A DNA stretch of 64,000 bases, taken from Candidatus Gemmiger stercorigallinarum (GTDB taxonomy: Bacteria; Bacillota; Clostridia; Oscillospirales; Ruminococcaceae). The position numbers and the translations under genes are program-made. Where the stretch lies: assembly GCA_019119495.1 (NCBI GenBank), contig DWWX01000020.1:245738-309737 (forward strand), in the 5' to 3' direction. Shown one piece after another: positions 5,803 through 63,917 of this stretch. Every line of letters starts with the position of its first letter. The stretch's first letter is position 1. The notes under the pieces are model-generated. The model saw nothing but the letters and a program-made list of their open reading frames with translations. It had not been told where the DNA came from and ran no database searches.

Positions 5803-7278
5803 TTACAAAAGAATGCAGATCAGGCCGTCACAGCCGTCGTTGATGATGCGCTCCAGCGTGACCTGCAGGCGGCTGCGGGCTTCCTGGGGCATGTGCAGCA
5901 GCTTGGCCTGCACCCCCTCGTTGACCAGCTCGTTCAGGCTTTTGCCAAAAATATTGGTGTTCCACAGCTTGCCGGGGTCGCTCTCGAAATCCTGCAGGAT
6001 GCTTTTGATCAGCTCCTCGCCCTGCTGCTCGCTGCCCACGCTGGGCGAGATCTCGGTGTGGATGGTGGCCCGCATGATGTGCAGCGACGGCGCGCTGGCC
6101 GACAGCCGCACCCCGTACTGCCCGCCCTGGCGCACGATCTCCGGTTCCTCCAGCGCCAGCTCGTCGATGTCCGGCATGACGATGCCGTAGCCGGTGGCCT
6201 CCACCTGGTCCAGCGCGCCCTTGATCTTGTCGTAGGCACGCTTGGCCCGCGCCAGGCTGACCACGCAGGGCAGAAGCGTCGCTTCGTCCACAATGTCCAG
6301 CCCGGTCTGCTCGCCCAGGATCTTATAGAAGATATCCGGCGCGATGCGCAGCGTGATGCGCACGCTGCCGGTGGCCAGGTCCATGCCGCAGAGGCTGGCG
6401 CCGGTCAGGTACTCGCAGTCGATGGCCGGCGTCTGCCCGGCCACGTCCCGCATGCGCTGGATGCCCGCGGCATACTGCTGCAGGGCGCCGTAGACCGAGC
6501 TTTGCAGCCAGTGGCCCGGTTCCAGCATGGTAACCCAGGCAGGCATGTTGACGGCGATCTCCTGCACCGGGAACTCGTAAAGCAGCTGTTTCAAGATGGC
6601 GTCCAGTTTTTCGGCGGTGAGCTGGGTGCAGTTGACCGGGATGACCGGGCGGCCGTAGTCCCGCTCCAGGCCGGCGGCCAGGCTGCGGCTGGCTTCGCTG
6701 TCCGGGTCCACACAGTTGAGCAGGATCAGGTACGGCTTGCCGATGTCGTCCAGCTCGGCGATGATGCGCTGCTCGGCATCCAGATAGCGTTCCCGCGGGA
6801 TCTCGGCGATGCTGCCGTCGGTGGTGACCACCAGGCCCACGGTGGCATGCTCCCGGATGACCTTGCGGGTGCCGGTCTCGGCGGCCAGGTCAAAGGGCAC
6901 GGCGTTGTCGAACCAGGGGCTTTTGACCAGGCGCGGGGCATTGTTCTCCTCGTGGCCGAGGGCCCCGTCCACCATATAGCCCACGCAGTCCACCAGCCGG
7001 GCGCGGAAACTGCCCCCGCCCGAAAGCTCCACCTCCACCGCCTTTTCGGGGATAAATTTCGGCTCGGTGGTCATAATGGTGCGGCCGGCCGCCGACTGGG
7101 GCAGCTCGTCGGTGGCGCGCGCCCGCTGGGCGTCGTTTTTGATGTGGGGCAAAAGCATCAGCTCGGCAAACCGTTTGATCAGGGTGCTTTTTCCGGTGCG
7201 CACCGGTCCCACCACGCCGATATAGATATCGCCGCCGGTGCGCTGGGCAATGTTCTGGTAAATTTGTTCCTGCGTCAC
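5803..7278 (-). CDS. spoIVA: Stage IV sporulation protein A
   Basis: IYQNIAQRTGGDIYIGVVGPVRTGKSTLIKRFAELMLLPHI; GTG start at 7278 with AAGGGGG RBS. Confidence 0.95.
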   Translation of the reverse strand: MTQEQIYQNIAQRTGGDIYIGVVGPVRTGKSTLIKRFAELMLLPHIKNDAQRARATDELPQSAAGRTIMTTEPKFIPEKAVEVELSGGGSFRARLVDCVGYMVDGALGHEENNAPRLVKSPWFDNAVPFDLAAETGTRKVIREHATVGLVVTTDGSIAEIPRERYLDAEQRIIAELDDIGKPYLILLNCVDPDSEASRSLAAGLERDYGRPVIPVNCTQLTAEKLDAILKQLLYEFPVQEIAVNMPAWVTMLEPGHWLQSSVYGALQQYAAGIQRMRDVAGQTPAIDCEYLTGASLCGMDLATGSVRITLRIAPDIFYKILGEQTGLDIVDEATLLPCVVSLARAKRAYDKIKGALDQVEATGYGIVMPDIDELALEEPEIVRQGGQYGVRLSASAPSLHIMRATIHTEISPSVGSEQQGEELIKSILQDFESDPGKLWNTNIFGKSLNELVNEGVQAKLLHMPQEARSRLQVTLERIINDGCDGLICILL

Positions 7279-7292
7279 TTTGGGTCCCCCTT

Positions 7293-8831
7293 TCACAGTG
7301 CCGCCGGGATCAGCAGGCAGGTTTTCTCTGTGGTCATTTCCTGCACGGCGACGCCGGGCTCCGGCTCCAGATGGTTGGCCGCGGCCAGGTCCCTGGCGCG
7401 GGCATGGTAGCGTTTGGCAATGTCAAAAATGCGTTCGCCCTGGGATGCGTAGTAAAGATAAAGCGCCGGGCCGTCGGCTTTGTCGGCAAACTCCTCGCCC
7501 AGGGTCACCTCACGCAATGCCGGCGACGCCTGCACGGCAAACAGCCGGCCGTTCACGCTGAGCTCGACCTCCACCCGCAGGCGGCCGCCGGCTTTGGCAG
7601 AGGTCACCTTGCCCACCGCCCCGTGGGCGCGCAGGCAGTAGTCGGCGGGCGCGCCGGGCCAGCTTTGCGGCAGCTGCCAGACAAACGCCTTGTCGTAGCA
7701 GGTCAGCTCACCGCGGGGATCGGCGCAGAGCACATGGGCCGTGCCCTTGCCCGCAAACACAACGGTGTGCTCCTGCTCGCCGGGCATGGCTGCCAGCGCC
7801 CCCAGCGTGACAAAACAGCCGGTGACCTCGGCATCCGGGTCGGGCAGATCGTCGCTGATCTCGGCCTGCACCGCCGCGGGCAGCGGGCCGGCGTCGGTCA
7901 GCAGGCGGCAGGGCGCCGCGTCCGTTTCGGTCTGGCAGAGGGTGGAATAGGCGTCGGCCACGGCGGTATACTGCACATCCCGCCACAGTTCGGCGTGCAG
8001 CTTCCATGTAACGGTCAATGTGGGATCGCCGTCGCCGGCTTCCAGCGTGCTGCCCAGCACCTCGCCCCAGAACAGGCACTCATCCCCTTCCGCCGCGGCG
8101 GCCAGGTCCAGAGTCTGGCGCACGGGGAGTTCCACCTGGCGGGCGGTGATCTCCTCAACGCTGGCGGGCCGGAAGGCAGCCTGGATGCGCAGCGTTCCCT
8201 GGCAGTTGACCTGCCCGGTCAGGACGGTGGCGGCTTCCGGCAGGAACACGCCGGAGATGTCCAGCACCACCGCGTCGCCGGCGGGCAGCGGGATGCGGCT
8301 TTCGGCCGTGAAGGTCTTTTCCTCCACCGCCGCGCAGGCCCTGCCGTTCAGCACGCGGGTGCGCTGCTCGATGCCGCAGTCCGCCAGCGAGGTGACCAGC
8401 TCCAGCTGGTCCACCATCTGTACCGCCACGCACAGCGCGTAGGCGCCCCGCAGGTCGATGCGGTGCTCGCTGATGGCGCGGCAGTTGACGTATTCCAGCT
8501 CGCCGGAAACGGCGGCAGGGCCTGTCTCGTAGCGGCCTTCGGGCAGGTCGGCGGTCTTTTCAAACGGGAATTTCTGCTCGATGCGGTACAGCTGTGCGCC
8601 GGCCTCGTCCGACTGGTAGTAGACGGTGCAGCGCAGGTAGCCTTCCCCCTGCCATTTGGCGGCGGCGGTGTGGTTCTGCAAAAGCACCGGCTCCACCAGG
8701 CATTTGACGATCTTGAACACCGCCGGCAGATAATCCGGGATCAGGAGCTCGGTCTCCACCGGCAGCTCCAGCCTTGTCTCCCACCGGCCGCCGTAGGCGG
8801 CGACGGTGTCTTTGAACACCTTCAATTCCAT
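7293..8831 (-). CDS. DUF3794 (SPOCS) and LysM domain protein, SipL-like
   Basis: DUF3794-type repeats and C-terminal LysM-like region (YLYYASQGERIFDIAKRYHARARDLAAANHLEPE); start chosen at MELKVFKDTVAAYGG. Confidence 0.8.
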   Translation of the reverse strand: MELKVFKDTVAAYGGRWETRLELPVETELLIPDYLPAVFKIVKCLVEPVLLQNHTAAAKWQGEGYLRCTVYYQSDEAGAQLYRIEQKFPFEKTADLPEGRYETGPAAVSGELEYVNCRAISEHRIDLRGAYALCVAVQMVDQLELVTSLADCGIEQRTRVLNGRACAAVEEKTFTAESRIPLPAGDAVVLDISGVFLPEAATVLTGQVNCQGTLRIQAAFRPASVEEITARQVELPVRQTLDLAAAAEGDECLFWGEVLGSTLEAGDGDPTLTVTWKLHAELWRDVQYTAVADAYSTLCQTETDAAPCRLLTDAGPLPAAVQAEISDDLPDPDAEVTGCFVTLGALAAMPGEQEHTVVFAGKGTAHVLCADPRGELTCYDKAFVWQLPQSWPGAPADYCLRAHGAVGKVTSAKAGGRLRVEVELSVNGRLFAVQASPALREVTLGEEFADKADGPALYLYYASQGERIFDIAKRYHARARDLAAANHLEPEPGVAVQEMTTEKTCLLIPAAL

Positions 8832-8964
8832 AGTGTGCATGCCCCTTTCTGCGGGTCTGTAATGTGCCAAAGCGCAGAGCCGTGCAGGGTTGGGCACCTT
8901 GCGTTTTCTGCCGCCCGCCTTCCACGCTTTCTTGTGCATCTATATGCGGGCACAAAACAAAATA

Positions 8965-9077: not shown

Positions 9078-9149
9078 TTATTTTACTTTGAATACGGCCC
9101 GCAGCAGCCAGCTGAGCGCCTTGGGGCATTTGACGACGACGATTTGCAT
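9078..9149 (-). CDS. spoVM: Stage V sporulation protein M (23-aa micro-ORF)
   Basis: MQIVVVKCPKALSWLLRAVFKVK*; strong AGGGAGGTG RBS; located after thiN as in other Firmicutes. Confidence 0.85.
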   Translation of the reverse strand: MQIVVVKCPKALSWLLRAVFKVK

Positions 9150-9221: not shown

Positions 9222-9869
9222 TCATGCCCCGCTGTCGGCGCGGGTCAGCACAACCAGGCCGCTGCCGCCGGTGCAGGCCAGGTGCGCCTGCGGGGCGGTG
9301 AACTCGTTGCTGACGCCCAGCGGAAAATCCGGCGTAAGCGTGGCGGCGCAGAGCGGGTAAAACACCCCCGCCAGGTCAACGCCGGTCAGCGGGCCGTCCA
9401 GCGGGAACACCGAAAGATACATCCAGTCCCCTTTTGCCAGCGTCAGCGGGCGGCCGGGCAGCAGGTAGTGCAGCTCGCTGCGGTCGCCGGCCAGGGTGAC
9501 GCAGACGCCGTTTTTGGCCAAAAACAGCCCGGTGGCGATGTTGGCCAGGGTGTGTTCCATCCGGGCGCCGCCCAGCGCCCCCAGCATGGTGACGGTCCGG
9601 GCGCCGTGTTCCAGCAGCCAGCGGGCGGCGTAGTGGGTGTCGGTATCGTCCTTGACATGGGGCAGCACGATGGTATGGCCGGTCTGGGGCGGGCGCGGGG
9701 CCGAGTCGAAATCGCCCACGATCAAATCGGGCTGCACGCCCAGGCGTTCGGCATGGCGGTAGCCGGCGTCGCAGGCAACGATGCAGTCGCCGGGGCGGAT
9801 ATACCGGCGCACCGCCGGCGTGACCGGGCCGGCGGAAAGGATCACCGCGCGGGTAACGGGTTTTGTCAT
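9222..9869 (-). CDS. thiN: Thiamine diphosphokinase
   Basis: DCIVACDAGYRHAERLGVQPDLIVGDFDS; HVKDDTDTHYAARW. Confidence 0.9.
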   Translation of the reverse strand: MTKPVTRAVILSAGPVTPAVRRYIRPGDCIVACDAGYRHAERLGVQPDLIVGDFDSAPRPPQTGHTIVLPHVKDDTDTHYAARWLLEHGARTVTMLGALGGARMEHTLANIATGLFLAKNGVCVTLAGDRSELHYLLPGRPLTLAKGDWMYLSVFPLDGPLTGVDLAGVFYPLCAATLTPDFPLGVSNEFTAPQAHLACTGGSGLVVLTRADSGA

Positions 9870-9977: not shown

Positions 9978-10856
9978 CTATCTGGGTCCCTTTTTTGTCT
10001 CCCACTCTTTGACCTGGGCGGCTTCCTCGTACATGGCAAGGTAGCTGGCATAGCGGGTGGGGGAAATTTTGCCCTCTTCCAAAGCCGCACGGACGGCGCA
10101 GCCTGTTTCGGACCGGTGGGAGCAGCCGATAAAGCGGCACTGCTCCCGGTAGGGCGCAAACTCCGGGAACACCTGTTCCAGCTCCTCTTTGGGGATATGG
10201 CACAGGCGCTGGGTCTCCAGGCTGGCAAAACCGGCGGTGTCGGCGATGCGGCCGCCGCAGACCTCAAAGATCTCGGTCTCGCGGGTGGTATGGCGGCCGC
10301 GGCCCAGCTTGCGGCTGATCTCGCCGGTTTCGCGGTGGAGCTGGGGCGCAATGGTGTTGAGCAGCGTGGATTTGCCCACGCCGGAGTTGCCGCAGAACGC
10401 GCACAGCCTGCCCCGGATCCAGCCGCGCAGCTCGTCCAGCCCCTCGCCGGTGTCATAATGCACAAACACCAGCGGCAGGCCGCTTTGGGCGTAATCCGCC
10501 GCCAGCATATCGGCAGCGGACAGGTCGGTCTTGGTAAACACCAAAACCGGCTGGACGTTCTGGTACAGGGCGGCGGCCGCCAGCTTGTCCAGCACCAGGG
10601 TGCTGGGCACCGGCTGGGTGGTGCTGGCCACGATGAACAGCACGTCCAGGTTGGCCACCGGCGGGCGCACAAACACGTTTTTGCGGGGGGCGATGTCGTC
10701 GATCATATTGCCTTCGGCGTTGAGGGTGACGTTATCCCCTGCCACCGGCGTGACGCCCCGCTTGCGGAAGATGCCGCGGGCGCGGCACTCCTGCACGCCG
10801 GCGTCGGTGCGGACATAGTAAAAGCCGCCCACGCCCTTGGTGATATAGCCGGTCAT
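9978..10856 (-). CDS. rsgA: Ribosome small subunit-dependent GTPase A
   Basis: Circularly permuted GTPase: TKTDLS, GNSGVGKSTLLN, DTAGF, C-terminal zinc finger. Confidence 0.95.
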   Translation of the reverse strand: MTGYITKGVGGFYYVRTDAGVQECRARGIFRKRGVTPVAGDNVTLNAEGNMIDDIAPRKNVFVRPPVANLDVLFIVASTTQPVPSTLVLDKLAAAALYQNVQPVLVFTKTDLSAADMLAADYAQSGLPLVFVHYDTGEGLDELRGWIRGRLCAFCGNSGVGKSTLLNTIAPQLHRETGEISRKLGRGRHTTRETEIFEVCGGRIADTAGFASLETQRLCHIPKEELEQVFPEFAPYREQCRFIGCSHRSETGCAVRAALEEGKISPTRYASYLAMYEEAAQVKEWETKKGPR

Positions 10857-12751
10857 CCTTCTTTGTACAGGAAGGTGCCGTCAGAGCGGTAAACGCTGCC
10901 GTCGCCGGTCTGGTAACGGTCCTCCCAGTTGCCGTCGCCCAGGTCCTCGGACCATCTTTTGACAATGGTGTTGGGATCGCCGTTCAGAACGCCGTCGTTT
11001 GTTGTTACCGGTGTCTCAGGCACGCCGCTGGAGACGGTCAGGCGCACGGTGGAGCCGATGCGCACCGTGCTGCCGCCGGCCGGCGACATGGAAAGCACCG
11101 TGCCGGCAGGCTGGTCGCTGGGGATCTCCTCCACCGAAGGCGTCACGTTCAGGCGGGTCAGGCGGGCGCGGGCTTCCTCCACCTGCAATCCCTCCACCGA
11201 GACCAGCTCCACGGTGGTGTCGATGCTGGCCTGGGCGATATACAAGGTAACGGTGGCGTCACCTTCCACCTGCTGGCCCGCCGCCGGGTCGGTGCGCACC
11301 ACCGTGCCGGAGGTCACGCTGTCGTCAATGACAAAGCTGCTGACGACGTTGTTGACCCCCATATCCTTGATGGCCTGCTCCGCCTCGTCCTTATCCATAC
11401 CAATGATGGTGTCCGGAATGGTGACCCAAAGGGGCCCCATGCTGACATACAGCGTGACGGCCTGGCCCTCCTTGACGATGCGCCCGGCGCGCGGATTCTG
11501 CTGGTAAATGACCCCTTCCTCGTACTGGGAGTTGTACTCGTACTGCCATTTGGGGGACAGCTGGGTGTAGTAGTCCGAGGCGCGGAACTCGCTCTCGGTC
11601 ATGTTGACAAAGTCGATCAGCTGCACGTCGGCCCGGTTGGAGAACAGGGGGTTGGTGGAGTTGGCAAAAATCAGGTAGACCAGGATAAAGGCGCCGATGA
11701 CAAAGGCCACCGCCATGCCGAAGAAGATGGGCACCACCGAGAACGGCTTGTCCCGTTTCTTTTTGCGGCTCTTGCCGTTTTTGCCGTGGTTGGTGCCCTG
11801 GCCGGCCCGGCGGGCGTCGGCGGTGCGCACGGCGGCGCGGGGCTTGTTGTCGTTGACGATCTTGTTGATAGTCCTGGCAGGTGCGTCGGTAGTCATATAC
11901 TCATACTCAAATTTGATGGAAGGGTTGTGCTTGAACTCGGTAATGGCGTCCAGCATTTCGCGGGCGGACTGGTAGCGGTCATCCGGCTCCTTGCTCATGG
12001 CCTTTTCGGTGATCTGGCGCAGGCCCTCCGGCACATTGGGGGCAACCTCGGCCAGGGGGCGGGGCTTCTCGGAGATCTGCATGATGGCGATGGAGACCGC
12101 GCCGGTGCCGTCGAAGGGCAGCTGGCCGCTGAGCATCTCGTACAGCATGACGCCCACCGAGTAGATATCGGTGCGGGCGTCGGTCTTGTCGCCCTTGGCC
12201 TGTTCGGGGCTGATATAATGCACCGAGCCGATGGCCTTGTCGCTGACGGTCTGGCTCTGCGCGCGGGAGAACCGGGCAATGCCGAAATCCATCATCTTGA
12301 TGGAACCGTCGGCCAGCAGCATGATGTTCTGGGGTTTGACGTCCCGGTGGACGATGCCCTTGGCGTGGGCATGCTCCAGCGCCGCCAGGATCTGGGTGGC
12401 AAAGTGCACCGTCTCTTTCCAGGTCAGGGCGCCGCCGCGCTGCTTGAGGTACTCTTTCAGCGTGATGCCGTCGATATATTCCATGACGATGTACTGCATC
12501 CTGTCCGACACAGAAACGTCGTACACCTTGACAATGTTGGGATGGCTGAGGATGGAAATGGCCTTGGACTCGTTTTTGAAGCGGCGGACCAGTTCCTCGT
12601 TGTCCATCAATTCCTCTTTCAGGACCTTGACAGCCACGGCGTTGCCGGTCTGGGTATCCTTGCCGCGGTAGACGTTGGCCATGCCGCCCACGCCGATCAG
12701 GCTCTCGATCAGATAGCGGCCATCCAGCTTTTTGCCGATCAGATTATCCAT
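10853..12751 (-). CDS. prkC: Ser/Thr protein kinase with PASTA repeats (PrkC/Stk1 type)
   Basis: Kinase motifs HRDVKPQN and DFGIAR, TM segment, about three PASTA repeats. Confidence 0.95.
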   Translation of the reverse strand: MDNLIGKKLDGRYLIESLIGVGGMANVYRGKDTQTGNAVAVKVLKEELMDNEELVRRFKNESKAISILSHPNIVKVYDVSVSDRMQYIVMEYIDGITLKEYLKQRGGALTWKETVHFATQILAALEHAHAKGIVHRDVKPQNIMLLADGSIKMMDFGIARFSRAQSQTVSDKAIGSVHYISPEQAKGDKTDARTDIYSVGVMLYEMLSGQLPFDGTGAVSIAIMQISEKPRPLAEVAPNVPEGLRQITEKAMSKEPDDRYQSAREMLDAITEFKHNPSIKFEYEYMTTDAPARTINKIVNDNKPRAAVRTADARRAGQGTNHGKNGKSRKKKRDKPFSVVPIFFGMAVAFVIGAFILVYLIFANSTNPLFSNRADVQLIDFVNMTESEFRASDYYTQLSPKWQYEYNSQYEEGVIYQQNPRAGRIVKEGQAVTLYVSMGPLWVTIPDTIIGMDKDEAEQAIKDMGVNNVVSSFVIDDSVTSGTVVRTDPAAGQQVEGDATVTLYIAQASIDTTVELVSVEGLQVEEARARLTRLNVTPSVEEIPSDQPAGTVLSMSPAGGSTVRIGSTVRLTVSSGVPETPVTTNDGVLNGDPNTIVKRWSEDLGDGNWEDRYQTGDGSVYRSDGTFLYKEG

Positions 12752-13493
12752 TTGTCCCCTCCGTTACTTCCACGCCCATCAAAAGGACCGTGATGTTGTC
12801 CTGCCCGCCGCCCTTGATGGCGCGGTCCACCAGGATGCGCGGCGCGTCGAAAAATGTGGTTTCCTGCAAGATCAGGGCGATCTCCTCGTCCGGGACCATG
12901 TTGGTCAGGCCGTCTGTGCAAAGCAGCAGCACGTCGCCGGGCTGGACCTCGCAGCGGTTGTATTCGGGCACGATGTTGGCCGAAACCCCCAGCGCCCGTG
13001 TGATAAGGTTTTTCTGCGGATGCGCGGCGGCCTGCTCGCGGGTGATCTGGCCGCTGTCCACCAGCTGCTGCACCATCGAGTGGTCGCGGGTCAGCTGGCG
13101 GATGCTGCCGCCCCGGCACAGGTAGGCGCGGCTGTCGCCCGCATGGACGATGTGCGCCATATTGCCGAACAGATACGCACAGACGCCGGTGGTGCCCATG
13201 CCGAGCATCTCCGGGTCCGAGGTAGCTTTATCATAAACCGCGCGGTTGGTAATGTCAAATCCGTGCATGATGAACTGCTTTTCCTCGCCATGGCGCAGTG
13301 TTTTGAGCTGGCGGGAAAAATACTGCAGCATGGTGTCGGTGGCGATCTTGGCCGCCGCGCGCCCGCCGTTGGCACCGCCCATGCCGTCGCATACGATGCC
13401 CCAGCCGGAACCGTCGGGCAGCTGCTGGCCGCAGTAGTTGTCCTGGTTTTCCTGCCGGCAGCTGCCGATATCTGTGAGCGCCGCAAGTTTCAT
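12744..13493 (-). CDS. PP2C-type Ser/Thr phosphatase (Stp1/PrpC type)
   Basis: QENQDNYCG...VCDGMGGANGG...HAGDSRAYL; overlaps prkC start. Confidence 0.93.
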   Translation of the reverse strand: MKLAALTDIGSCRQENQDNYCGQQLPDGSGWGIVCDGMGGANGGRAAAKIATDTMLQYFSRQLKTLRHGEEKQFIMHGFDITNRAVYDKATSDPEMLGMGTTGVCAYLFGNMAHIVHAGDSRAYLCRGGSIRQLTRDHSMVQQLVDSGQITREQAAAHPQKNLITRALGVSANIVPEYNRCEVQPGDVLLLCTDGLTNMVPDEEIALILQETTFFDAPRILVDRAIKGGGQDNITVLLMGVEVTEGTNG

Positions 13494-63167: not shown

Positions 63168-63917
63168 TTACAGCCCCAGCTCCCAGCGGACACGCTCCGC
63201 CAGACTCATCACAAATTTGCGGTTGGAAAGCGGCTTGTCGGTGCTTTCGCCCAGCTGCCGGCAGAGTTCCAGGTAAGCCGGGGTCGCCTGTTTCCACATG
63301 GCGCGCACCGCGCGGCCCACCGCCTTGCTGATGGTGTTGGGCGTGGTATAATAGCGGGCTGCCAGCTGGCAGTACAGTTCCTCCGCGGTGGTGTTCGGGT
63401 CGCGCAGCACAAGCTCCTCCGCCATCCAGCGGATGTAGTTGCCGCCCACCAGCTCCGGCGGCGAGCGGTACGCCCGCAGGTGCCAGTTGATGTGCGAGCG
63501 CACCCGCCGCTGCCGCAGCGTGTCGTTGTCCGCCGCCAGATAGATCGCCGTATCCAGCAATTCTTCCAACCGATATGGTTTTAGCATAAAGAAATCGGCC
63601 CCGGCTGTCAAGAGTCTGCGGGCCATCGCCTCGCTGGGCGCGCGCATCGTCACAAGGACCGCGGGCGGGTCCTTCAGGCACAGGCGGCCCACGCCGGCAA
63701 GCAGCTCAAACACGCTTATGTCCGGCAGCAGCATATCCACGATCAGCACATCGGGCGGCGGGCTTTCCCGCAGCCGTTCCAGCACCTGCCTGCCGGTGCC
63801 GGCCACCGTGACCTGAATGTCCTGCTGAAGCTGCGCATACAGTCCGACCGCGCTGCACACCTTCCCGTCGCCGTCCGCAAACAGCGCCGTCAGGGTCGTT
63901 CCGGCTGCATTGGTCAT
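63168..63917 (-). CDS. Spo0A-like response regulator (receiver plus Spo0A C-terminal DNA-binding domain)
   Basis: Receiver VLIVDMLLPD; C-terminal GGNYIRWMAEELVLRDPNTTAEELYCQLAARYYTTPNTISKAVGRAVRAMW...NRKFVMSLAERVRWELGL. Confidence 0.82.
   Translation of the reverse strand: MTNAAGTTLTALFADGDGKVCSAVGLYAQLQQDIQVTVAGTGRQVLERLRESPPPDVLIVDMLLPDISVFELLAGVGRLCLKDPPAVLVTMRAPSEAMARRLLTAGADFFMLKPYRLEELLDTAIYLAADNDTLRQRRVRSHINWHLRAYRSPPELVGGNYIRWMAEELVLRDPNTTAEELYCQLAARYYTTPNTISKAVGRAVRAMWKQATPAYLELCRQLGESTDKPLSNRKFVMSLAERVRWELGL

Follow-up and report, generated by a model that had tools for sequence, protein, structure and literature searches.

In Bacillus subtilis, spoVM encodes a peptide of 26 aa and sits after thiN in the prpC-prkC-rsgA-thiN block, with rpmB downstream. 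In C. difficile, spoVM is located near rpmB and co-transcribed with CD25622, the partners of the peptide are SpoIVA and SipL, all three genes are sigma-E dependent, and the bacterium can largely do without SpoVM (PMC5607322). Pro9, the one SpoVM residue conserved throughout, is tied to the recognition of positively curved membrane (PMC5607322), and its importance for convex-membrane recognition comes also from PMC4307972. It was already stated in 2012 that annotation rarely catches spoVM (PMC3533761).

The locus described here lies in a window of 64,000 nucleotides, the whole stretch of Gemmiger DNA that was analysed. It resembles the B. subtilis system in the site after thiN, Pro9, Arg17 and the amphipathic C-terminal helix. 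The differences are in the length of the peptide (23 versus 26 aa), in the residues at positions 2, 6, 14 and 15 (from B. subtilis to the window, K2 to Gln, I6 to Val, G14 to Trp and I15 to Leu), and in the genes downstream, which are sipL-spoIVA instead of rpmB. With C. difficile it shares the SpoIVA and SipL partner set, and the sigma-E control described there has a possible counterpart in a sigma-E-like -10 element; the window spoVM is, however, placed directly upstream of sipL-spoIVA. In other Oscillospirales (e.g. Faecalibacterium, MQMIVIKSPKCLAGLLRMLFGIKKEGGR, locus L048, and loci L080-L101) many SpoVM genes occupy the same site, but these forms have Ser8, often Gly14, and in many cases a GIKK-type tail, whereas in Gemmiger Cys8 and Trp14 are found and the tail is lost.

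The spoVM micro-ORF and its gene neighbourhood

The sequence-only reading that preceded this analysis had placed a SpoVM micro-ORF of 23 aa at positions 9078-9149, after thiN and without mention of the strand. The peptide is encoded exactly there, on the minus strand (the plus strand at 9078-9149 reads differently), and the end of thiN at 9222 is 72 nt upstream. The genes that matter for the argument are the following.

12744 to 13493, minus strand: prpC, PP2C phosphatase (NF033484, 255.6 bits, cut-off 230)
10853 to 12751, minus strand: prkC, PASTA Ser/Thr kinase (NF033483, 543 bits, cut-off 450)
9978 to 10856, minus strand: rsgA (cpgA), GTPase (profile matches)
9222 to 9869, minus strand: thiN, thiamine diphosphokinase (TIGR01378, 121.7 bits, cut-off 76.4)
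9149 to 9078, minus strand: spoVM, 23 aa, MQIVVVKCPKALSWLLRAVFKVK, with the ATG start at 9149 and the TAA stop ending at 9078
7293 to 8831, minus strand: sipL-like gene, SpoIVA-interacting protein (SPOCS domain PF12673, E = 7e-9)
5803 to 7296, minus strand: spoIVA, coat morphogenetic ATPase (TIGR02836, 650.7 bits, cut-off 459.9)

The order of transcription on the minus strand is priA-def-fmt-rsmB-rlmN-prpC-prkC-rsgA-thiN-spoVM, followed by sipL-spoIVA. Up to spoVM this is also the order in B. subtilis apart from rpe, which is not at the B. subtilis-like position in the window. The gene is thus found after thiN in the prpC-prkC-rsgA block of a genome encoding SpoIVA, and it adjoins both expected partners of the peptide, since sipL and spoIVA come next on the same strand. 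The start of spoIVA overlaps the stop of sipL. The C-terminal LysM of the sipL-like gene gives a weak match, below the cut-off, and the true start of this gene is probably at 8831, where the homologous SipL N-terminus MELKVFKDTV begins, and not at 8939 as in the mechanical ORF list. The sequence-only reading was silent on the two genes directly downstream, as it was on the shortened, divergent form of the peptide in this genus and on the loss of alpha/beta SASPs and GPR.

In most Gemmiger loci and in many other Oscillospirales loci (Faecalibacterium, Pseudoflavonifractor and unclassified families included), spoVM precedes spoIVA by ~1.7 kb, and sipL, where it was detected, lies between the two. 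Two Gemmiger contigs (L041 and L050) do carry the SpoVM peptide, but at a distance of 9-10 kb. Most Ruminococcus-type loci (L052-L066) have sipL-spoIVA, and spoVM was not found within the stretches examined. The adjacency of the three genes reaches well past Gemmiger (Oscillospirales loci L080-L101), and the syntenic spoVM-sipL-spoIVA cluster offers a simple route to finding spoVM.

In a profile search of the whole genome, the window peptide is the sole match of the SpoVM model (E = 1.2e-4). With NF033436 (NCBIfam SpoVM_broad) it aligns over positions 1-23 of 26 with E = 4.3e-6, at a score of 26.6 bits versus the curated cut-off of 31. The search with the family HMM, proposed in the sequence-only reading as a check, returned a full-length match and fell short of the curated threshold; the proposed identity holds, and it agrees with the gene order and with the residues known to matter in SpoVM. 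The Bacillus-type SpoVM model (NF011327) gave no match to the window peptide, none of the Pfam models recognises it (the one match is due to chance), and a search of solved structures gave no match with the 23-aa query, which is probably too short. The micro-ORF is a real gene and a SpoVM orthologue, that is, a member of a known family. It is filed as SpoVM because none of the biological features tested failed, most of them being present and sigma-E control being possible, and the NF033436 cut-off is an annotation threshold, no defining feature of SpoVM.

Conservation, residues and annotation

The survey of the genus comprised 35 Gemmiger genomes, including the source genome, whose spoIVA is 92-97% identical to those of the nearest Gemmiger isolates and MAGs. 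The sequence-only reading had made its case depend on conservation of the peptide in related genomes, and this was found, in 35/35 Gemmiger genomes and in many other Oscillospirales. Among six genomes with an identical peptide, 16 of the 69 coding positions vary, and every one of these is a third position with a synonymous change (for random changes P would be about 1e-10). A pN/pS of 0.26 was obtained for the reading frame from 30 Gemmiger loci. The identity among six relatives is 90% inside the ORF and about 42-43% just downstream; in the region from -20 to -1 ahead of spoVM it is 82.5%. As judged from these substitution patterns, spoVM is under purifying selection as a protein, which argues that the step served by SpoVM is still used.

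Pro9 is invariant in the window and in the 30 Gemmiger loci (30/30), and position 17 is occupied by Arg in 28 and by Lys in 2 of them. Position 6, the SpoIVA contact, is Ile in B. subtilis and in C. difficile, whereas it is Val in the window and in the Gemmiger loci (Leu in one). Position 2 is Gln, His or Arg in Gemmiger, in place of the K2 of B. subtilis. Cys8 and Trp14 are genus-specific and present in 30/30 loci, and the Gemmiger peptides, with a length of 22-23 aa, have lost the C-terminal GIKK-type tail. For residues 10-23 of the window form a hydrophobic moment of 0.55 was calculated, versus 0.49 for B. subtilis in the same way; this moment is reached by 7% of the shuffles for the window form and by 0.9% for the G. 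formicilis-like form. The peptide stays below the 30 aa that bound a SpoVM, and the helix that follows Pro9 is amphipathic.

The Faecalibacterium form exceeds the NCBI cut-off for SpoVM and the Gemmiger forms do not; five other Gemmiger forms show zero match in the NCBI model. In the order as a whole, 57/295 sampled genomes have a match above the cut-off, and some match at E up to 1 is present in 227/295, partly as noise. Matches with E above ~0.01 were left uncounted in this search because control genomes (Caulobacter, archaea) also give SpoVM-model matches at that level (E up to 1). The cut-off of NF033436 is conservative, given that only 57 of the 295 genomes pass it and that a syntenic Pseudoflavonifractor orthologue scores 19.3 bits. 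It is plausible that automated pipelines overlook the Gemmiger spoVM, since the window peptide scores below the NCBI cut-off and the five other forms are unmatched. The NCBI model under-calls the Gemmiger form, and sporulation surveys based on annotation would score spoVM as absent in this common gut genus.

Expression signals around spoVM

All signals considered are on the minus strand and are listed in the order of transcription.

9190 to 9181, minus strand: -10-like promoter element GCATACAATG, fitting the sigma-E -10 consensus of B. subtilis (KCATANANTN) at every position
9163 to 9156, minus strand: RBS GGGAGGTG, 6 nt before the ATG, from the sequence and the local identity among relatives
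9061 to 9024, minus strand: terminator-like hairpin 1 (hairpin 9061-9035, then U8), -21.1 kcal/mol for the stretch, z -1.4
9000 to 8955, minus strand: terminator-like hairpin 2 (13-bp stem 9000-8964, then UAUUUUGUUUU), -29 kcal/mol, z -4.6
8948 to 8925, minus strand: promoter-like block of 24 nt, CGCATATAGATGCACAAGAAAGCG, located after the spoVM terminators and ahead of sipL

The -10 consensus was taken from PMC3416734, and 0.0018 matches to it are expected in 72 bp. CATANNATGG is present at the promoter site in 30/30 Gemmiger loci, 7 of which have the exact sigma-E -10 while 23 deviate from it. No recognisable -35 for sigma-E or sigma-K was found upstream of spoVM. Some relatives have an ACAC close to the stop of thiN; it belongs to the conserved end of that gene and is not counted as a -35. 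Control of spoVM by sigma-E is suggested by the -10-like element, in line with C. difficile.

The RBS that had been proposed as strong lies 6 nt ahead of the ATG. In the case of the proposed downstream terminator, two candidates with a hairpin and a U-tract were found, which differ in quality: the second folds better than shuffled sequences (0/200 fold equally well), and the first, at a z of only -1.4, folds only slightly better than its shuffles. With 0-7 mismatches, the CGCATATAGATGCACAAGAAAGCG block recurs ahead of sipL in almost every Gemmiger locus and is probably the sipL-spoIVA promoter, GCATATAGATG being a candidate promoter element for sipL, as GCATACAATG is for spoVM. The same block can mislead the calling of start codons (ATG at 8939).

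Sporulation genes of Gemmiger and the probable role of SpoVM

A strong match to Spo0A is found in 34/35 Gemmiger genomes (weak in the remaining one), and SpoVAD is present in 35/35. Genes resembling those for sigma-E and sigma-G are found in 33/35, with scores that are strong although under the cut-off. In the source genome the sigE-like and sigG-like genes form a tandem on the contig that contains the window, ~30 kb to the left of the latter (G000:C7:214123-216284), and neither reaches its NCBIfam equivalog cut-off (314 versus 348.6 bits and 350 versus 457 bits, respectively). Neither alpha/beta SASPs (PF00269) nor GPR, the protease that degrades them (TIGR01441), were found in any of the 35 Gemmiger genomes (0/35 for each). 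Both searches match in B. subtilis, and in the same GTDB family SASPs are found in 86/120 and GPR in 92/120 sampled genomes. The loss has already been reported in part, as Gemmiger, Faecalibacterium and Anaerofilum were described without spore proteins and with the remaining sporulation genes present (PMC6069880). In the literature searched, endospores of Gemmiger are not directly addressed, and the papers on sporulation in the gut do not mention the genus.

That the coat-foundation set is under selection despite the loss of SASPs and GPR is more interesting than the peptide itself, and it raises a testable question, namely why a genus labelled as non-sporulating keeps the machinery for the foundation of the coat and has lost the spore DNA-binding proteins together with their protease.

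The ORF is very probably the single spoVM of this Gemmiger species, acting in the foundation of the spore coat. Early in sporulation, sigma-E of the mother cell would transcribe spoVM from a separate promoter located behind thiN, and a second promoter would drive sipL-spoIVA. The 23-aa peptide would form a short amphipathic helix with a kink at Pro9, and SpoVM would be placed in the outer forespore membrane where this is convex and help tether SpoIVA. By analogy, SpoIVA would then polymerise and bind SipL, which would give a basement layer for the coat. The gene with its conservation, selection, synteny and key residues is shown here; the membrane and SpoIVA steps are carried over from B. subtilis and C. 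difficile. For the completion of a coat or spore by the organism we can only infer, and what is finally made may differ from a normal spore, since the genus is without alpha/beta SASPs and GPR and is described as non-sporulating. The retention of Spo0A, SpoVAD and the sigma-E-like and sigma-G-like genes in the genus speaks for this explanation. The points that speak against it are the score below the cut-off, the replacement of K2, the missing tail, the missing -35, the deviation of 23 of the 30 loci from the sigma-E -10 consensus, the absence of alpha/beta SASPs and GPR, and the small need for SpoVM in C. difficile.

A more far-reaching proposal, which we regard as tentative and rather doubtful, is that Gemmiger has a complete, selected coat-forming forespore programme made up of Spo0A, sigma-E and sigma-G, SpoVM-SipL-SpoIVA and SpoVA, without alpha/beta SASPs or GPR and with an adapted, genus-specific, shortened SpoVM (Cys8, Trp14, tail lost). 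If true, spores would be formed without SASPs in a genus that has been called non-sporulating.

It is unlikely that selection keeps spoVM-sipL-spoIVA for a non-classical role, for instance in an endospore-like or abortive forespore or in an unrelated curved-membrane structure. The loss of SASPs and GPR although Spo0A, the sigma factors, SpoVAD and SpoVM are kept would be consistent with such a role, as would the altered SpoVM of the Gemmiger clade (invariant Cys8, Trp14, tail lost) and the inability of C. difficile sspA sspB mutants to complete spores (PMC10245694). SpoVAD, however, a component of dipicolinic acid uptake for which no use other than in a true spore is obvious, is present in 35/35 genomes, and SASP genes are easily lost, with no great SASP diversity needed for viable spores (PMC3533761).

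We consider it very improbable that spoVM is in decay, as the remnant of a sporulation pathway that has been lost. The shortened C-terminus, the weak profile score and the absence of SASPs and GPR could be read in this way, but the substitutions among the six genomes are synonymous in 16/16 cases, pN/pS is low (0.26), the gene is intact in 35/35 genomes, and the RBS and the promoter-like element are kept.

A chance short ORF, or an unrelated SpoVM-like amphipathic peptide, can practically be dismissed: short models do yield chance matches, as in the Caulobacter and archaeal controls, but the micro-ORF is the only model match in its genome, with a significant score at the site predicted by synteny, is conserved through the order, has been lost from no Gemmiger genome (35/35 carry the peptide) and is under purifying selection.

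The window also encodes, at 63168-63917 on the minus strand, a second response regulator whose C-terminal domain resembles that of Spo0A (PF08769, 33.4 bits, cut-off 25; TIGR02875, 67 bits, cut-off 200). It is distinct from the main Spo0A (G000:C7:10648-10959), and secondary Spo0A_C-like matches are found in about a dozen other Gemmiger genomes.
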